From Cytophagaceae bacterium ABcell3 (GTDB taxonomy: Bacteria; Bacteroidota; Bacteroidia; Cytophagales; Cytophagaceae), in assembly GCA_030913385.1 (NCBI GenBank), contig CP133159.1:1014584-1078583 (forward strand): a stretch of 64,000 bases of DNA. Direction: 5' to 3'. The position numbers were made by a program, and so were the translations under genes. Every line of letters starts with the position of its first letter. Positions within the stretch are counted from its first letter, which is position 1. Shown in pieces: positions 2,477-37,040 of this stretch. Below the pieces are notes generated by a model. The model was not told the origin of the DNA, made no database searches, and saw nothing but the letters and a program-made list of their open reading frames with translations.

Positions 2477-3988
2477 TTAGGCCCTCCTTACCTGGTTTAA
2501 AATATACTCATGACCTAAAAATTCGGAGCAGGTTGTTATTGATCCTATGGTTACCCCTAAAACACCGTGCATGTTTAGGTTTTGGCCTGTCAGGAATAGA
2601 TTGGGAACTTTTGTTCGGGCACTTATAAAAGAACGTAAAGGATCTTTATGGTCTTTCACTATTCCATATAGTGACCCATCTTTGGTGCCGATATAATCTC
2701 TGTAGGTTAAAGGAGTGGAGGTATAGTAGGATACAATATTTTCTCTCAGTCCAGGGAATTTCTTTTCTATCTTATCTAACAGTAACTCTGCTTTTTCTTT
2801 TTTGAAAGCTTCATATCCTGACCCACGGTCGTTTTCTGAAGCGACAGTATTAAAAGTGTCAGCCCAAGGCGCCGTATCCGCATATTGCATATAGGTCATG
2901 GCTATAAGAGAGTCCGTGTATTCCTGCTCTTCTGATGATGCTCCTGTAAATAAAGCATACCCTTTTGGCCAGTCATCACCATACACTGCACCGTCCCATA
3001 CATTTTTGTCAATGTAGTGGTAATAGTTGCAGTTGAAGTATTTCATGGAATTTTTTTTCAATACTATGTATATGATAAACACAGAAACCGAGTTTTCTAA
3101 GCTGCTTATCCTTTTTCTATAGGCTTTGCGTATGCCTACACCTTCTTGTATCATATCTAGCGTTACGGCAGGGTGTACGTTAGATATGAATTGCTTTGCT
3201 TCGAACCTTCTTCCATCTGCGAGTTCAACAAAGCGGATTTTGTCTCCGTCAAAAATAAAGTTCTTAGCTTGGGCATGTTTAATTACTTTTCCTCCATTAT
3301 TGAGAATATTGCGAGTAAGCTGTATGGCAATTTGGGAGCCACCATTGATGCATCTATAGGCGCTTTCTATATAAGAATTGATAACCAGCGCATAAGTGTA
3401 AAGAGGGGTTCTGTCCCCTTCTCCTGCAAAAAGTGGGTTTGTGCCGGCCAGGACTGATCTCAGTTTTTCATCTTTTGTGAATGAGGCAATAAAGTCTCTG
3501 GCATTGATGGTTAAAAATGGAATACTGCTAAAGTCTAAGTTGCTTACCTTAAGGTTGTATAAAGGGAAGCTTTCGCAAACTTCTTTAATTTTGTCACAAA
3601 AGTCGCTTATGGCTTTTCTTTCTTGCGGGAAATAAGATGATAGTATATTTATAAAGTTATCATAGCCTTGTCCGTAACGATAGGCTGTGTCGTCCCCCTC
3701 AAAGGTGATGATGTCAAAGCCATTTTCATCCAACTTTTTTAGCCTAAGGTTGTCCATGATGCCCAAATACTTAAAGTATTGGTTGAGGTTCTGGTTTTCG
3801 TCCAGCCCACCAATGTAGTGTATTCCAGTATCGAAAATTTGTTTGTCCCGTACGAAAGTTTGTAGGTTGCCGCCTAACTGTTTGTTTTTTTCCAGCACAA
3901 GTACATTATACCCTTCCTTGCTAAGGATAGATCCACATTCAAGTCCTCCGAGTCCGCTACCTATTATTATAATATCATACTTTTCCAT
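2477..3988 (-). CDS. CrtI/retinol-saturase-like NAD(P)/FAD-dependent oxidoreductase
   Basis: This is a 503-residue flavoprotein. The N-terminal Rossmann motif GSGLGGLECGSILSKEG with VLVLEKN binds the FAD ADP part. The C-terminus carries NLFLTGQNLNMHGVLGVT, the second FAD contact seen in phytoene-desaturase and all-trans-retinol 13,14-reductase relatives. Such enzymes desaturate, isomerise or saturate polyenes. It overlaps the start-side MMPL fusion gene by 14 bp (3975-3988) and is the last gene of the leftward group, which fits a tailoring step on the polyene or its fatty chain. The substrate is inferred from context only. Confidence 0.8.
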   Translation of the reverse strand: MEKYDIIIIGSGLGGLECGSILSKEGYNVLVLEKNKQLGGNLQTFVRDKQIFDTGIHYIGGLDENQNLNQYFKYLGIMDNLRLKKLDENGFDIITFEGDDTAYRYGQGYDNFINILSSYFPQERKAISDFCDKIKEVCESFPLYNLKVSNLDFSSIPFLTINARDFIASFTKDEKLRSVLAGTNPLFAGEGDRTPLYTYALVINSYIESAYRCINGGSQIAIQLTRNILNNGGKVIKHAQAKNFIFDGDKIRFVELADGRRFEAKQFISNVHPAVTLDMIQEGVGIRKAYRKRISSLENSVSVFIIYIVLKKNSMKYFNCNYYHYIDKNVWDGAVYGDDWPKGYALFTGASSEEQEYTDSLIAMTYMQYADTAPWADTFNTVASENDRGSGYEAFKKEKAELLLDKIEKKFPGLRENIVSYYTSTPLTYRDYIGTKDGSLYGIVKDHKDPLRSFISARTKVPNLFLTGQNLNMHGVLGVTIGSITTCSEFLGHEYILNQVRRA

Positions 3989-6900
3989 TGCCGCTCTTTT
4001 CCAGAATAAATAAAGTGTTTGATGTGTATTTTGTATTGTCTATAGTTTTTAAAGACAGGTTATTGTTTTCTGCAAAACTTTGTACCATTTTATCAGAAAT
4101 ATAGCAAAAGCTATTTTGGGTTTTGTTAAAACCATACCGAGTGGAAAAAACCTCTGTGAGCGCTGTTCTTTTGTGCAGCTTGGTATTGCTACTGTTTCCA
4201 TCACGTATGATTATCATCCCATGGTCAGGTAAGTTGTCTATTATTTTTTTCAATAACTTCATTTGCTCTTCACAAAGCAGGTAATGCAATAGGTCGCTTA
4301 TTATAAAAACGTCAGCTTTTTCAAAAGAAAAACCTGTTACATCGGCATGAATAAACGATAAGCCAGAAGGCTTAACCGGGCAATTGGCTGCTGTTTCTAT
4401 TTTGTCTTGGTCATAGTCAATGCCTATAATATGTCTTTTTGAAGAAGAAAATGCCAAAGAATAAGAGATTAGCCCATATCCGCAACCGATATCGTAAATT
4501 TTTGCTTCTGCTGGAATTAGCTCATGAAGTAATAGGTAATAACCTTCCAGCCGGAATTTAACTTTTAGGTACCATTCTAAGACAGGGCCTTTGTAAAGGT
4601 AATTTTTTAAGATTGTTTCTTTATAATAAAGTGGATTTTCCTGCTCCATCCTGAGGGTTTTGTATTCACTTTTGAAATACCTACTGATCTTTTTTGTCGC
4701 TTCAGAATATCCCGAGCCAAACAGCTCTGAACCATAGGCAATCCGAGGAAGGAATTTTACCGTAATATTCCCACTTTTTAAATAAAAACCATCACTTTTA
4801 GGCATTGTATAGCTTGTGCCATGGAGAATGACAGGCTGGATATCGAGTTTAAAGTGCTGAGCTAAGAAGAGTGCACCTTTGTGAAAACGCCCGATTTCGG
4901 CAGTGTTAGACCTTGTCCCTTCTGGGAAAATAACTATTGAGTACCCTTCTTCAATAAGCTTTTCAATTTTGCCCACCTGCTCTTCTACACCAACGGTGGT
5001 TGAAATAAAATCTGCGTATTTGACTACTGATCCGAAAAATGGAGAATTGTATACCCAGTCGTTAGTTACCATTACCACTTTATGGTGTAACATGAGCATT
5101 AGTAGAATATCTAAAAAAGAGTGGTGGTTGGCAATAATCACAGAGGGCTTAGAAAAGTCAGCAAGCGATTTTCCTACAATGCTGATATTTACGTTTCTCA
5201 TGATATAGACAAGAGAGCTACAGAAGACTCTAATAACATGATGGTAAATGAGCTTTTTGCGCCTGGAAGGCAGAATAGGTAGGTAAAACACCGCTCTTAT
5301 CAATGAGAGTATAAGGCAACCAGTCAGAAAATAAACAAAAGCGAAGGAGGAAAGAAACAATGATTTAAAAGTATAGGGAATAAGCCCTTTCTGTTTCCTC
5401 TTTATTATTAAAAAGTTATAAAGGAGTGGCTGAAGGGTAAATGTAATAAAGGTTACAGAGGTAATCCCGATAATAGCCAGCAGGGCAATAGATTGTAGCG
5501 CTGGATGTCGTGCAAATGCCAATACTCCGATGCTTAATAAGGTTGTTACGGCTGAAAGTATAATTGATTTTTTATACGATAGTATGGTTTTTAGCCCTTT
5601 GGCTGCGTCTTGCAAGTACCCGCGGGTGGTAAATATGCTGTAGTCTACCCCAAGCCCAAAAATGAACGTGCAAACAACAATATTGACTATGTTGAACCGT
5701 AAGTCAAAAAAGCCCATAATGCCTAAAATCCATAACCAGCTTACTAATATTGGAGTGAATATCACAAGGGTTACTTCAATTCTGCCGTATGTTATAAATA
5801 TAATCAGGAAAACAACGATCAGCGATATATTAACTAATTTGTTGAAATCTTCCTGAAGAAGACGGATTAAGCTTGATGTAAGATAGCTTTTGTCAAATGC
5901 CAAAGCGGCGTCCAGCTCCTCTAATACATTTATTACTGAGGCTTTATGCTCTGTGGTGGTTTTTATGGTAGAAATGACTGATACTTTGCCATTTTGGCTA
6001 ACGATATAGTCATCTCCAAATACAGAAAATATTTTCTCGATATGTTCTTGCTCCAATGGTGCATAAGTGTTCTTTAACAGCGTCTCAAAGGTAGAGAATC
6101 CATCTGCTTTAAAGCCAGTTTGAGAGGCTTTAGAAATAAATGAAGTGTATACTGAGTCTGCATTATGCTCCTGCCAATAGCTGTTCCACTGGTGCAACCG
6201 CTCCCGCTGAACAGATGGCGCTGGCACAAGATCATTGACAGAGGTGTAAGAAAAAATATTTCCCTGATCTTTAAGTTTTTCTAGCTTTTCTCGTGTTTTC
6301 AGCTCTTTTTCCAAAGCATCTTCTAAATTCTGCCCGGATGTGATGGCAAAAACGGTATTGGCCGAAAAGGTAGAAATGCGGTTAATGTTCTCTTCGTATG
6401 CAGCTAGCTCTGGTGGCATATAGTGAAGCCGGTTCATGTCATCCTCAAAAGCGTAGTTTTTCCATGTAAACAAACTGGCAACGGAAAGGAACAACAATAA
6501 AAGCAAAGACCATTTAGCTTTAAAAAATGGGTATTCTGCAATAGCAGACACGGTTTTCTCAATAAAGTTTTGAGGGTTTTCTTTTGTTGCTGTTTTATTG
6601 TTTTTCCTTATAATAAAATGAGGGAGCACTGTGAGGGTATAAATAGAACCTGCTAAAACACTAACTCCAGCAAAGATGCCAAAATCGGCAAGGGCTTCTG
6701 AATGTAGAAATATCAGTGACAAAAAAGCCGCTGCAGTGGTAAGGCTGCTAATCAGAAGTGGCGTATTCAGGTCTCTAAACAATGTACTGGCTTCCTTGTG
6801 GTCTTTGTAATGGGTAAATAAGTGCAGGGAATAGTCTATGGTTATGCCCAATAAAATAGATCCTACTCCTAAAGAAATTGTAGAAACTGTTCCTTTTACT

Positions 6901-32537: not shown

Positions 32538-32987
32538 ATGAAAATACCAATTGTGAAAAATTACACTATCATTTTCGCATTCCTTTTTTTCTCTTACTCC
32601 ACGTATGCTACAGATGGAACCTTTACTGATACCATTGTGACATCTACTGGCTTGAAATATGTCGTGCTTAAAAAAGGGGATGGGGAAAAACCTAAAAAGG
32701 GAGACAAGGTTACCGTGCATTACCGAGGTGAGCTTCCCAGCGGGAAAGTGTTTGATACCAGCAGAAACGGTAGACCTTTTAAGTTTAAAATCGGGAAACA
32801 GCAGGTGATTCCGGGTTGGGAAGAAGGTGTCACTCTAATGAGGAGGGGTGAAATTGGTGTATTAATTGTTCCGGCACATTTGGCTTATGGAAAGCGTGGT
32901 GTAAGAGATGAATTTGATGACTCAAATTATGAAATTCCTCCTGATAGTGAGCTTATTTTTGAGATGGAACTACTTCATTTTAAATAA
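32538..32987 (+). CDS. Short secreted FKBP-type peptidyl-prolyl isomerase
   Basis: A 149-residue single-domain FKBP with a signal peptide (IIFAFLFFSYSTYA). The domain is complete: KVTVHYRGELPSGKVFDTS, QVIPGWEEGVTLMRRGE, HLAYGKRGVRDEF and IPPDSELIFEMELL. Unlike the two upstream proteins it has no lipobox Cys and no extra domain. It is behind a terminator and so is likely transcribed on its own; a -7-like TATCTTTA at 32490 lies 41 bp before the ATG. Confidence 0.88.
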   Translation: MKIPIVKNYTIIFAFLFFSYSTYATDGTFTDTIVTSTGLKYVVLKKGDGEKPKKGDKVTVHYRGELPSGKVFDTSRNGRPFKFKIGKQQVIPGWEEGVTLMRRGEIGVLIVPAHLAYGKRGVRDEFDDSNYEIPPDSELIFEMELLHFK

Positions 32988-33003: not shown

Positions 33004-33702
33004 GTAGTGCCGATTTTTTATCGGCATGGTACTTCGGCGATTAGGATTGTCTTTCAACTTAGGCCACTAAAAGAGGTTTTCCTGAACCGATAGGAAATCG
33101 GATCTACGGTAAGGATAGCTGCTTTGGCGATTAACTCTGTCTTTCAGCTTATCTCAATGAATGGACTAATTGTTGGTTCGAAAGGAGTTCATGTTTATTG
33201 TAGTGCCGATTTTTTATCGGCATGGTTACTTCGGCGATTAGGGCTATCTTTACTTAGGTCAGTAAAAGTGGTTTTCCTGATCCGATAGGAAATCGGATCT
33301 ACGGTAGGGTATAGTTGCCTTTGGCGATTAACTCTGTCTTTCAGCTCATCTCAATGAATGTCCTGATCGTTGGTCCGAAAAGGTTCATGTTTACTGTAGT
33401 GCCGATTTTTTATCGGCATGGTTACTTCGGCGGTTAGGACTATCTTTCAACTTAGGTCAGTAAAAGAGGTTTTCCTGATCCGATAGGAAATCGGATCTAC
33501 GGTAGGGCATGGTTGCCTTTGGCGATTAGCTCTGTCTTTCAGCTCATCTCAATGAATGTACTAATCGTTGATCCGAAAGAAGTTCATGTTTATTGTAGTG
33601 CCGATTTTTTATCGGCATGGTTACTTCGGCGATTAGGGCTATCTTTACTTAGGCCAGTAAAATAGGACTTCCTGATCCGATAAGAAATCGGATCTACGGT
33701 AA
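33004..33702. repeat. REP array, left arm (4 pairs)
   Basis: Four forward REP units, GTAGTGCCGATT...ATCGGCA (feet at 33004, 33200, 33396 and 33595), alternate with inverted units of the form GATCCGATAGGAAATCGGATC-TAC. Read on the minus strand the latter are GTAG-ATCCGAT...ATCGGATC, so both kinds share a GTAG foot and a CCGAT/ATCGG hairpin. The period is 196-199 bp and the spacer DNA between hairpins is also repeated. This is the organisation of BIMEs mobilised by RAYT transposases. Confidence 0.88.
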
Positions 33703-33776
33703 GGGTAATTTCTTATCGGTATGACTTTTTACCATGGAATAGTTACTTTCTGCTTTATCGCATGGTAACGCAAATG

Positions 33777-34376
33777 TTATAAGTATTTCAAAAATATTGG
33801 ATTGCAATACGAAAACTCATAATCCTCTCTACATTTTACATAACCAGCTTTAACAGGGTTGTCTAGTGTGTAGTTTATTTTGTTCGCAAGATCCTCCATG
33901 TTTTTTATCAAATTGTCATAACTTTCCTTTTGCCAAAAAACGCCTTCCCTTCTAAGCATTGCATTGCATTTAATAGCTGTGTGTCTTTTCAATGATTGTA
34001 AAATTTTATATAACGGGCGTTGGCATTTGTCTATGATAAGATGGACGTGGTTTGCCATAACTGTATAACAGATAAGCCTGTAGTCTTTACTATCTAGGTA
34101 GTGGAACGAATTTGCAACAATTTTTGCTATGTCTTTTTGTTTTAGCCATACAGGGCCATATGTTGCCTTGTCTAAAAAGGTTTCATATTTCTCAAATAAG
34201 TTATCATGATGTGGCTTGCTATGTTTTGCTTTAATTTTTTTTAGAAGCTCTATTTCTTGTTTCAGTGAATCATGAACTTGTTTTGGTAAAGACCCATATA
34301 GCCTGTAAGTGATGAAAAATATACCATCTTTTGGTTGAATGTGAGGAAGGTTACGTCTGTAAAAAGGTTTATACAT
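33777..34376 (-). CDS. REP-associated tyrosine transposase (RAYT, Y1 family)
   Basis: A 199-residue Y1/HUH transposase. GIFFITYRLYGSLP starts the domain, the metal-binding HUH motif is in TVMANHVHLIID near residue 110, and the candidate catalytic Tyr lies in NKINYTLDNPVKAGYV near 167. RAYTs bind the GTAG foot of REP hairpins and cut single-stranded DNA. This one is embedded between two REP arrays, which makes it the likely handler of these repeats. The gene looks intact. Confidence 0.9.
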   Translation of the reverse strand: MYKPFYRRNLPHIQPKDGIFFITYRLYGSLPKQVHDSLKQEIELLKKIKAKHSKPHHDNLFEKYETFLDKATYGPVWLKQKDIAKIVANSFHYLDSKDYRLICYTVMANHVHLIIDKCQRPLYKILQSLKRHTAIKCNAMLRREGVFWQKESYDNLIKNMEDLANKINYTLDNPVKAGYVKCREDYEFSYCNPIFLKYL

Positions 34377-34475
34377 GGAAAAAAATATTTAAAAATTAAT
34401 TCATGGGGGAAATTTACTTCTAAATGATTTAATTTTAAAGAGTTAATATCAGTTGGAGTCTAATTAGCTCTATAT

Positions 34476-35958
34476 GTAGTGCCGATTTTTTATCGGCATT
34501 GGTATCTTTGGCGGTTAGGACTGTCTTTCAACTTAGTCAGTAAAAGAGGTTTTCCTGATCCGATAGGAAATCGGATCTACGGTAGAGGCATGGTTGCTTC
34601 GGCGATTAAGGCTATCTTTGCTTAGGCCACTAAAAGAGGTTTTCCTGATTCGATAGGAAATCGGATCTACGGTAGGAGTAGTTACTTCAATGATTAGCTC
34701 TTCCTTTTAGCTTAGCTCAAAAATTTATTGATCATTGATCGGAAAGAAATTGATTTTATTGTAGTGCCGATTTATCGGCATGGTACTTCGGCGATTAGGC
34801 CTGTCCTATAACTTAGGTCAGTAAAAGTGGTTTTCCTGATCCGATAGGAAATCGGATCTACGGTAGGAGTAGTTACTTCAATGATTAGCTCTTCCTTTTA
34901 GCTCAACTCACTAAATTTACTGATCGTTGGTTCGAAAAGGAGCTCATGTTTATTGTAGTGCCGATTTTTATCGGCATGGTACTTCAGCGATTAGGAGTGT
35001 CCTTCAACTTAGCTCAGTGAAAGTGGTTTTCCTGATCCGATAAGAAATCGGATCTACGGTAGGGCATAGTTGCCTTTGGCGATTAGCTCTGTCTTTCAGC
35101 TTATCTCAATATATGTACAGATCGTTGGTCCGAAAGGAGTTCATGATTATTGTAGTGCCGATTTTTTATCGGCATGGTACTTCGGCGATTAGGCCTGTCC
35201 TATAACTTAGGTCAGTAAAAGTGGTTTTCCTGATCCGATAGGAAATCGGATCTACGGTAGGAGTAGTTACTTCAATGATTAGCTCTTCCTTTTAGCTCAA
35301 CTCACTAAATTTACTGATCGTTGATTCGAAAAGGAGCTCATGTTTATTGTAGTGCCGATTTTTATCGGCATGGTACTTCAGCGATTAGGAGTGTCCTTCA
35401 ACTTAGCTCAGTGAAAGTGGTTTTCCTGATCCGATAAGAAATCGGATCTACGGTAGGGCATAGTTGCCTTTGGCGGTTAGCTCTTTCTTTTAGCTCAACT
35501 CACTAAATGTACTGCTCACTGATCCGAAAGGAATTGGTTTTATTGTAGTGCCGATTTTTTATCGACATGGTTACTTCGGCGATTAGGAGTGTCCTTCAAC
35601 TTAGCTCAGTGAAAGTGGTTTTCCTGATCTGATAAAGGGTTCGGACTTAAAGTAGTGCCGATTTCTTATCGGCATAGCTACTTTCAGTGACTAAGACTAT
35701 CTTTACTTTAGTCGGTAAAAGAGGTTTTCCTGATCCGATAGGAAATCGGATCTACTGGAGGGCATGGTTGCTTCGGCGGTTAGCTCTTTCTTTTAGCTCA
35801 TCTCAATAATTATTGTGTTCATTGCCCCGACAAGAAATCGTATTTACTGTAGTGCCGATTTTTTATCGGCATAGCTGTTTCACTGATCAAGGCTGTCTTT
35901 CAGCTTAGGTCGGTAAAAGAGGTTTTCCTGACCCGATAGGAAATCGGATTTACGGTAG
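34476..35958. repeat. REP array, right arm (8 forward, about 9 inverted units)
   Basis: Forward units have GTAG feet at 34476, 34761, 34955, 35152, 35349, 35545, 35652 and 35849. Inverted CCGAT-AGGAA-ATCGG units lie between them, including an extra one near 34646 and a degenerate one near 35627. The spacing is 194-197 bp except where a unit is added or lost. A block of about 390 bp (34761-35152) recurs almost unchanged at 35152-35545, which suggests recent unequal exchange. The array ends 6 bp before the corA stop codon. Confidence 0.88.
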
Positions 35959-35963
35959 GGTAG

Positions 35964-37040
35964 TCACATCCACCCTTTTTTCTTGAAAAAAGCAATCATT
36001 CCTATGGAAATCAGGAACATGACGCCTAAGACAAAAAAATACCCGTGTTGCCAATGCAGTTCAGGCATGTTGTCGAAGTTCATTCCATAAATTCCAACAA
36101 TAAACGTTAGTGGGATGAAGATGGTGGAGATAATGGTCAGCACCTTCATGATAGCATTTGTCTTATTGCTTATACCAGAGAGGTAAAGGTCCATGAGGCT
36201 GGAAAGTGTCTCCCGGTTAGACTCTATAGTTTCTATGACCTGTATCGTATGGTCGTAAATATCTCTTATATAAACTATGAGAAAAGGGTTGTTAAAAAAG
36301 CCATCTTCCCTTTCCATGCGACCAATCACCTCTCTTAATGGCCACACAGATTTTCGGAGGTAGTTCATTTCCCGTTTTAAACTGTACAGTTTCCGCAGCT
36401 TTCGGGTATCAGGGCTACTGATGATATCCTCCTCTAACTGTAGAATACTTTCTCCCGTATTTTCAAGAATGACGAAATAATGATCTACAATAATGTCAAG
36501 CAATGAATAAAGTAGGTAATCTGCCCCATTGCGCACGGTTCGCCCTTTTCCTTTCCTAATCCTTTCCCGAATGGGGTCAAATAAGTCACCTTCTTTTTCC
36601 TGAAAAGTAAGCACGAAATTTTTGCCTAATATCATGCTTACCTGTTCAGACTGAATTAATTGTAGGGCTTTGTTATAGCTTAGCATTCGTACTACTACAA
36701 AAAAGTAGTTTTCATGCTCCTCTGCCTTTGGCCGTTGATCCGTGGTCACGATGTCTTCCATGAGCAGGGAGTGAAGTCCAAAGACTTTACTAGTTTTTTC
36801 TAACACCTCTGGGTCCGCCAATCCATCGATATTGAGCCATACGGTTTGTTCTAATGACAGCGCCTCTGCTGCTTGTGCAGGGTCTTCTATCTCTTGTTCT
36901 TTATGCTCGTCAGCATTATAGGTAAATAGTGTCAGACGTGACTTCTCACGCTTATTTTCAGCAGTGACCATAGACCCAGGGGGAAGTCCTGCTTTGTATG
37001 AACGTTTTGTATAATGACTGGCCGTTTTAAAGTTTTTCAC
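35964..37040 (-). CDS. corA: CorA-type magnesium/divalent cation transporter
   Basis: A 358-residue CorA protein. The large N-terminal cytoplasmic domain (LNIDGLADPEVLEKTSKVFG, LLMEDIVTTDQRPKAEEHEN) is followed by a long stalk helix and two C-terminal TM helices. The signature YGMNF lies at the end of TM1, next to the periplasmic loop FDNMPELHWQHG. Pentamers conduct Mg2+ into the cell. The start overlaps uvrA by 14 bp on the same strand. Confidence 0.93.
   Translation of the reverse strand: MKNFKTASHYTKRSYKAGLPPGSMVTAENKREKSRLTLFTYNADEHKEQEIEDPAQAAEALSLEQTVWLNIDGLADPEVLEKTSKVFGLHSLLMEDIVTTDQRPKAEEHENYFFVVVRMLSYNKALQLIQSEQVSMILGKNFVLTFQEKEGDLFDPIRERIRKGKGRTVRNGADYLLYSLLDIIVDHYFVILENTGESILQLEEDIISSPDTRKLRKLYSLKREMNYLRKSVWPLREVIGRMEREDGFFNNPFLIVYIRDIYDHTIQVIETIESNRETLSSLMDLYLSGISNKTNAIMKVLTIISTIFIPLTFIVGIYGMNFDNMPELHWQHGYFFVLGVMFLISIGMIAFFKKKGWM

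Follow-up and report, generated by a model that had tools for sequence, protein, structure and literature searches.

How did an array of 25 small hairpins in alternating orientation come to surround a single transposase gene in Cytophagaceae bacterium ABcell3? The window analysed is a stretch of 64,000 nt (assembly GCA_030913385.1, contig CP133159.1, positions 1,014,584-1,078,583 of the forward strand), and positions below are those of the window unless another locus is named. The hairpin array and the RAYT gene occupy positions 33004-35953, roughly 3 kb; the preliminary description set the end at 35958, about 5 bp too far. Together they take up the 2,976-bp intergenic gap between two convergent genes. 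One encodes an FKBP-type peptidyl-prolyl isomerase (32538..32987, plus strand; Pfam FKBP_C, E 1.3e-30), its stop lying 16 bp ahead of the array start, and the other a CorA-like Mg2+ transporter (35964..37040, minus strand; Pfam CorA, E 2.3e-76), its stop lying 10 bp beyond the array end. The locus is a REPtron, that is, a RAYT plus REPs. Probably, this Cytophagales REPtron arose as a concatemer of REPINs in which alternate units decayed, followed by amplification of blocks around the RAYT gene in the fkbp-corA gap.

Two types of hairpins are present. The F hairpin (23 nt) has the form GTAG-TGCCGAT-T(n)-ATCGGCA and occurs 12 times, at positions 33004, 33200, 33396, 33595, 34476, 34761, 34955, 35152, 35349, 35545, 35652 and 35849. 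The R hairpin, read on the minus strand, is GTAG ATCCGAT-TTCCT-ATCGGAT. It has 11 good copies, at 33085, 33280, 33478, 33675, 34558, 34839, 35035, 35233, 35429, 35733 and 35931, and two degenerate ones at about 34648 and 35825, 13 in all. These counts agree with the about 12 forward and 13 inverted hairpins reported earlier, and the outer stem bases differ between F and R (TG/CA versus AT/AT) as was then stated. The GTAG foot, said to be kept in both orientations, is indeed retained in all 12 F hairpins and in most R hairpins, but the R hairpin at 35931 has TTAC instead of CTAC.

These hairpins are not chance structures, since the F motif with up to three mismatches is found at 68 places in the genome against 0 for a reversed-pattern control, and the hairpins fold far below shuffled sequences. 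The five hairpin pairs tested have fold z-scores from -4.3 to -4.9 relative to dinucleotide shuffles, none of 200 shuffles being as stable. Two stretches between the pairs (z -0.6 and -0.8) show no excess folding. With its GTAG foot, multiple copies and extragenic location, the F hairpin is a REP as usually defined (a palindrome of 20-40 bp). A search of the array against Rfam found no family.

The RAYT gene (33777..34376, minus strand) lies between the fourth and the fifth F/R pair. It encodes an uninterrupted frame of 199 aa with the HUH motif H110-V-H112, the pair W148-Q149, the catalytic Y169 and N173, in agreement with the intact Y1 transposase of the preliminary description: HUH plus one catalytic tyrosine is the signature of Y1 HUH enzymes. 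Residues H110, H112, W148, Y169 and N173 are unchanged in all 14 aligned sequences. The protein matches Pfam Y1_Tnp (E 3.5e-5) and NCBIfam REP_Tyr_transpos (E 1.8e-20, 73.3 bits; 72.4 bits by genome search), the NCBIfam IS200 model being far worse (0.0033). At about 73 bits it misses the curated cut-off of 80 bits for REP_Tyr_transpos. This shortfall is borderline and not decisive, as it concerns a scoring threshold and no biological feature, and the match spans most of the model.

The nearest solved relative by sequence is E. coli TnpA_REP (4er8). The same structure, TnpA_REP with a REP hairpin, is the top PDB match of the AlphaFold model (pLDDT 85) in Foldseek (E 3.3e-7), ahead of ISDra2 (4e-4) and IS608. 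Thus both the NCBIfam score and Foldseek favour TnpA_REP over the IS200 transposases as the nearer kin of this RAYT. In the alignment with 4er8 the Trp-Gln of the GTAG-reading segment is retained; at the positions named in PMC6006769 we read E100 as D, H101 as N and R104 as K, the 4er8 numbering being our reading. The gene is flanked by inverted palindromes with GT(A/G)G feet. The earlier designation of the locus as REP/RAYT stands, and so does that of its hairpins as GTAG-footed in either orientation. In other REPtrons the role of GTAG in binding and in the choice of the cleavage site is experimental (PMC8266576). By analogy, this RAYT probably recognises and cleaves the array hairpins surrounding its own gene.

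In Tandem Repeats Finder the array has periods of 197-198 bp, close to the 196 bp noted before, and a higher-order period of 394 bp. The left array (33004..33697) has four F and four R hairpins with a period of about 197 bp. The right array (34476..35953) has eight F and nine R hairpins, two of the latter degenerate, with the same period and the 394-bp higher-order repeat. Within these arrays the F...R pairs span 103-105 bp, which corresponds to the layout of a REPIN (two inverted REPs about 70-110 bp apart), and each pair may act as one unit. 'REPIN' here names the layout and not a dispersed population. Tandem alternating REPs with conserved spacers are also the arrangement of BIME-2 elements. 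Intact REPINs adjoin the RAYT gene on the left (33595..33697; hairpin listing and fold test) and on the right (34476..34580), giving a REPIN-RAYT-REPIN layout as in several related loci.

The array was cut at a conserved spacer motif into 20 monomers of about 90 and 107 bp. All 20 have the same direct orientation and form two alternating subfamilies, alpha and beta, with identity of mostly 74-100% within and 53-74% between subfamilies, one hybrid monomer being left out. In both subfamilies the order of parts is the spacer, the R box, a CTAC-N-GTAG or related foot junction, and the F box. Alpha monomers have an intact R and no F; beta monomers have an eroded R and an intact F; the hybrid monomer at 35578 retains both an R-like box and F. 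Spacers of the two subfamilies are homologous (z 8.4, 0 of 1000 dinucleotide shuffles). Thus the alternation does not come from inverted copies, as every monomer is direct and has both R and F positions, of which as a rule one survives, and the earlier term 'inverted units' does not apply.

The reading that suits the array best is a REPIN concatemer, with units of about 103 bp (GTAG-hairpin...hairpin-CTAC) and alternate REPINs decayed. An intact unit at 33200..33302 (GTAG-F hairpin, alpha spacer, R hairpin-CTAC; 103 bp) has a fold z-score of -4.67 (0 of 200 shuffles). The decayed unit at 33303..33395, between two intact ones, still has GTAG, but its F hairpin is deleted and its R box degenerate; it has an alpha-homologous spacer and a z-score of -0.78. 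The alternating orientation is then the remnant of head-to-tail REPINs with abutting feet, left after the loss of hairpins in every second unit. The likely order of events is concatemer first, decay second. A strict scan of the window for abutting GTAG junctions found none, because at each junction one hairpin has decayed.

A second array in the same genome (L121, positions 3906-4340, at 1.331 Mb) still has abutting R and F, CCGATAGGAAATCGG-atttact-GTAG-CGCCGATTTTTTATCGGCG. Two copies of this pair are 206 bp apart, the second with one change in F, and a decayed pair lies between them. The outer stem of the R-like box differs from that of the window R hairpin. Spacers of L121 are related to each other and unrelated to those of the window array, and therefore the two arrays share only the hairpins and the layout.

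The mode of growth can be read from the right array. The block 34771..35081 (plus strand) recurs at 35165-35475, shifted by 394 bp, with one mismatch in 311 bp; spacers are duplicated along with the hairpins, as had been noted. These near-identical copies show that growth proceeded by block duplication. The remaining units differ from one another by 5-25%, and therefore growth was both old and recent. Of the earlier statement that the array is actively expanding, at least one recent expansion is supported; the word 'actively' rests on this single duplication in one strain.

The earlier note asked for a genome-wide count. The exact F hairpin is found at 40 places, 29 of them outside the array, and 41 of the 45 scored F-family members outside the window are extragenic. 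Among the 390 other genomes of the order there is one match, with a different loop. On the other hand, the exact R hairpin occurs at nine places, all within the array, and the spacer unit was not found elsewhere in the genome. The dispersed F copies are single hairpins with no R partner. Most are in large intergenic mosaics, which reach 4-5 kb, and many have CGTC-type repeats beside them there. Thus it is not the REPIN itself that was dispersed in this genome. The suggestion that the locus is a nursery was only partly right, because the 23-nt F hairpin is dispersed and whole units are not.

A match to the RAYT is present in 70 of the 391 genomes of the order, this genome counted, and homologues were seen in Hymenobacter, Arcicella, Emticicia, Saprospiraceae, Ignavibacteria, Anaerolineales and others. 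Homologues from Bacteroidota, Ignavibacteria and Chloroflexi have GTAG or GTAA hairpins at their borders. Of 104 loci, 46 have GTAG-footed hairpins no farther than 300 bp from the RAYT, where the density of such hairpins is 45 times that of DNA over 1.2 kb away; for GTAA the figures are 31 of 104 and 35-fold, although this count alone does not resolve the foot to the base, because nested stems lift shifted neighbouring tetranucleotides as well. That GTAA is nearly as common as GTAG at the borders of the relatives (L057-L086, L137-L216) suggests a switch of the foot within the family.

Short tandem arrays with such hairpins stand beside several RAYTs, e.g. in L162 (107 bp, 3.9 copies), L169, L140 and L170; none of those seen exceeds about five copies. 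In L170 (590-752, Candidatus Tenebribacter) the array has a period of 53 and REPIN-like units abut directly, TTAC being followed at once by GTAA. A strict scan found perfectly abutting intact junctions in 3 of 110 related loci, all GTAA-footed and none GTAG-footed.

The scheme favoured here is the following. Firstly, by analogy with characterised TnpA_REP proteins, a domesticated IS200/IS605-like Y1 transposase would bind GTAG-footed single-stranded hairpins and nick beside them, the mobile unit being a REPIN of about 103 bp (GTAG-hairpin-spacer-hairpin-CTAC). Secondly, REPINs would come to follow one another head to tail, their feet abutting (R-CTAC-N-GTAG-F), and so form a concatemer. Alternate REPINs would then decay, F being lost cleanly and R eroded. 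Finally, recombination or slippage would multiply the resulting 197-bp dimer of an intact and a decayed unit, to the left and right of the RAYT gene, into blocks of 394 bp and more, and these blocks would fill a formerly minimal fkbp-corA gap.

One could also assume that the array grew purely by slippage or unequal crossover, with the RAYT a passive neighbour or retained for another, domesticated role. Direct repeats with conserved spacers, the 394-bp block duplication and the confinement of the spacer and the exact R hairpin to the locus all agree with this. However, it leaves unexplained both the dispersed 23-nt F hairpins and the 35-45-fold higher density of GTAR hairpins beside the RAYTs of other genomes, and we consider it somewhat unlikely.

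The idea of a formerly minimal gap comes from relatives. The FKBP and CorA genes are adjacent and convergent in four genomes of the same family, and the stop-to-stop distance is 8 bp in two of the four, the two in which both stops were located; these relatives belong to another genus. The insert may owe its origin to REPtron insertion or to growth in place. Read by eye, the fkbp/corA junction of the relatives (L105, L109, L111, L112) has a short hairpin and a T-run overlapping the end of corA, in two of them GGCTC-TTTCA-GAGCC-ATTTTTT, and looks like a shared terminator.

The array, too, lies between two convergent 3' ends, at the very spot where the relatives have this hairpin, and for the BIME-2 elements of E. 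coli gyrase binding is reported (PMC2817692). One possibility is therefore a BIME-2-like regulatory or structural array kept by selection for binding of gyrase or another factor, transcription termination or 3'-end protection. However, most F and R hairpins do not look like terminators (five terminator-like sites in the array against 2.7 expected, four of them in spacers), so that a terminator reading of them is weak. Besides, no Rfam family was found and the hairpins are decayed in half of the units. Such a role appears unlikely.

A variant of the concatemer scheme gives the transposase a larger part. The abutting junctions of L121 and L170 resemble the joined ends of a circular REPIN, and thus point to a specific testable intermediate: a circle with the junction R-CTAC-N-GTAG-F, copied or inserted repeatedly, would let the transposase itself produce a true concatemer. 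If so, RAYTs would build tandem arrays directly, and decay of alternate units would be a recurrent stabilising route. At present this is quite unlikely. Finally, near-identical 394-bp copies commonly cause mis-assembly, but the genome is one 5.115-Mb contig with completeness 100 and most units differ by 5-25%, a divergence that artefacts would not create, so an array length produced by assembly is highly improbable.

The REPIN concatemer with decayed alternates belongs to an already known kind of locus, as ordered REPIN arrays and TnpAREP classes have been published (PMC3116915, PMC6006769). In P. fluorescens SBW25, RAYTs are accompanied by ordered REPIN clusters, and REPs of the GI-GIII types form tandem arrays (Bertels and Rainey 2011, PMC3116915). 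As here, the arrays are ordered and tandem, spacers are duplicated and a REPIN cluster stands beside each RAYT; there two alternating types of REPs lie 112 and 72 bp apart, with a period of about 184 and up to 12 REPs. Unlike SBW25, the present locus is a single array of 25 hairpins around the RAYT, in Bacteroidota, with a period of 197 and every second REPIN decayed. The E. coli BIME-2/TnpA_REP system (REPtron Ec) also has tandem units of opposed REPs with a GTAG foot, and its protein is homologous to this RAYT in sequence and fold (4er8). Unlike E. coli REPs, the hairpins here have perfect 7-bp stems with no conserved bulge and A/T-rich loops, and the protein identity is low.

E. coli and Pseudomonas thus already provide examples of such a partnership of hairpins and transposase; the present locus is an unusually long one from Bacteroidota, with an unusual pattern of decayed alternates. 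The locus brings the RAYT/REP system into a phylum with no GTAG repeats listed in a survey of 2013 (Di Nocera et al. 2013, PMC3733652). A 2018 survey did place TnpAREP subclasses 2.4 and 2.6 in Bacteroidetes (Quentin et al. 2018, PMC6006769), and the earlier remark that such systems are much less studied there is fair. By description only, the locus resembles subclass 2.4, which is rich in Bacteroidetes and has flanking REPs with GT[AG]G feet; neither the double-foot REPs nor the insertions of REPs into the gene that are described for that subclass were seen at this locus. A long array with a readable history of duplications, a single intact RAYT and a site near-empty in relatives make a good natural record of array formation, which bears on how RAYTs move or multiply hairpins.

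The CGTC-tagged repeats of the 2013 survey, which have no known dedicated transposase (PMC3733652), are absent from the window array; CGTCATTGCGAGG-like repeats adjoin dispersed F hairpins in this genome. Intergenic tandem mosaics of 4-5 kb with periods of about 387-400 bp (L045, 4200-8060, at 2.32 Mb; L047, 8350-12400, at 4.04 Mb) combine the GTAG F hairpin with CGTCATTGCGAGG-type and CTGTCAGG...CTGACAGG repeats. Four hairpins of the F type lie at 4.095 Mb (L048, 2267-6250), in repeats with a spacing of about 0.9 and 1.8 kb, each hairpin within a putative reading frame of about 110-140 codons.

The same genome contains at least three more RAYT-like genes with hairpins of other sequences on their flanks. 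At 2.503 Mb (L123), 1.525 Mb (L122) and 1.824 Mb (L124) the nearby hairpins differ from those described here and have no GTAG foot. One of these three genes is accompanied by inverted repeats flanked by GGGGAGGGG, similar to published TIRYTs.
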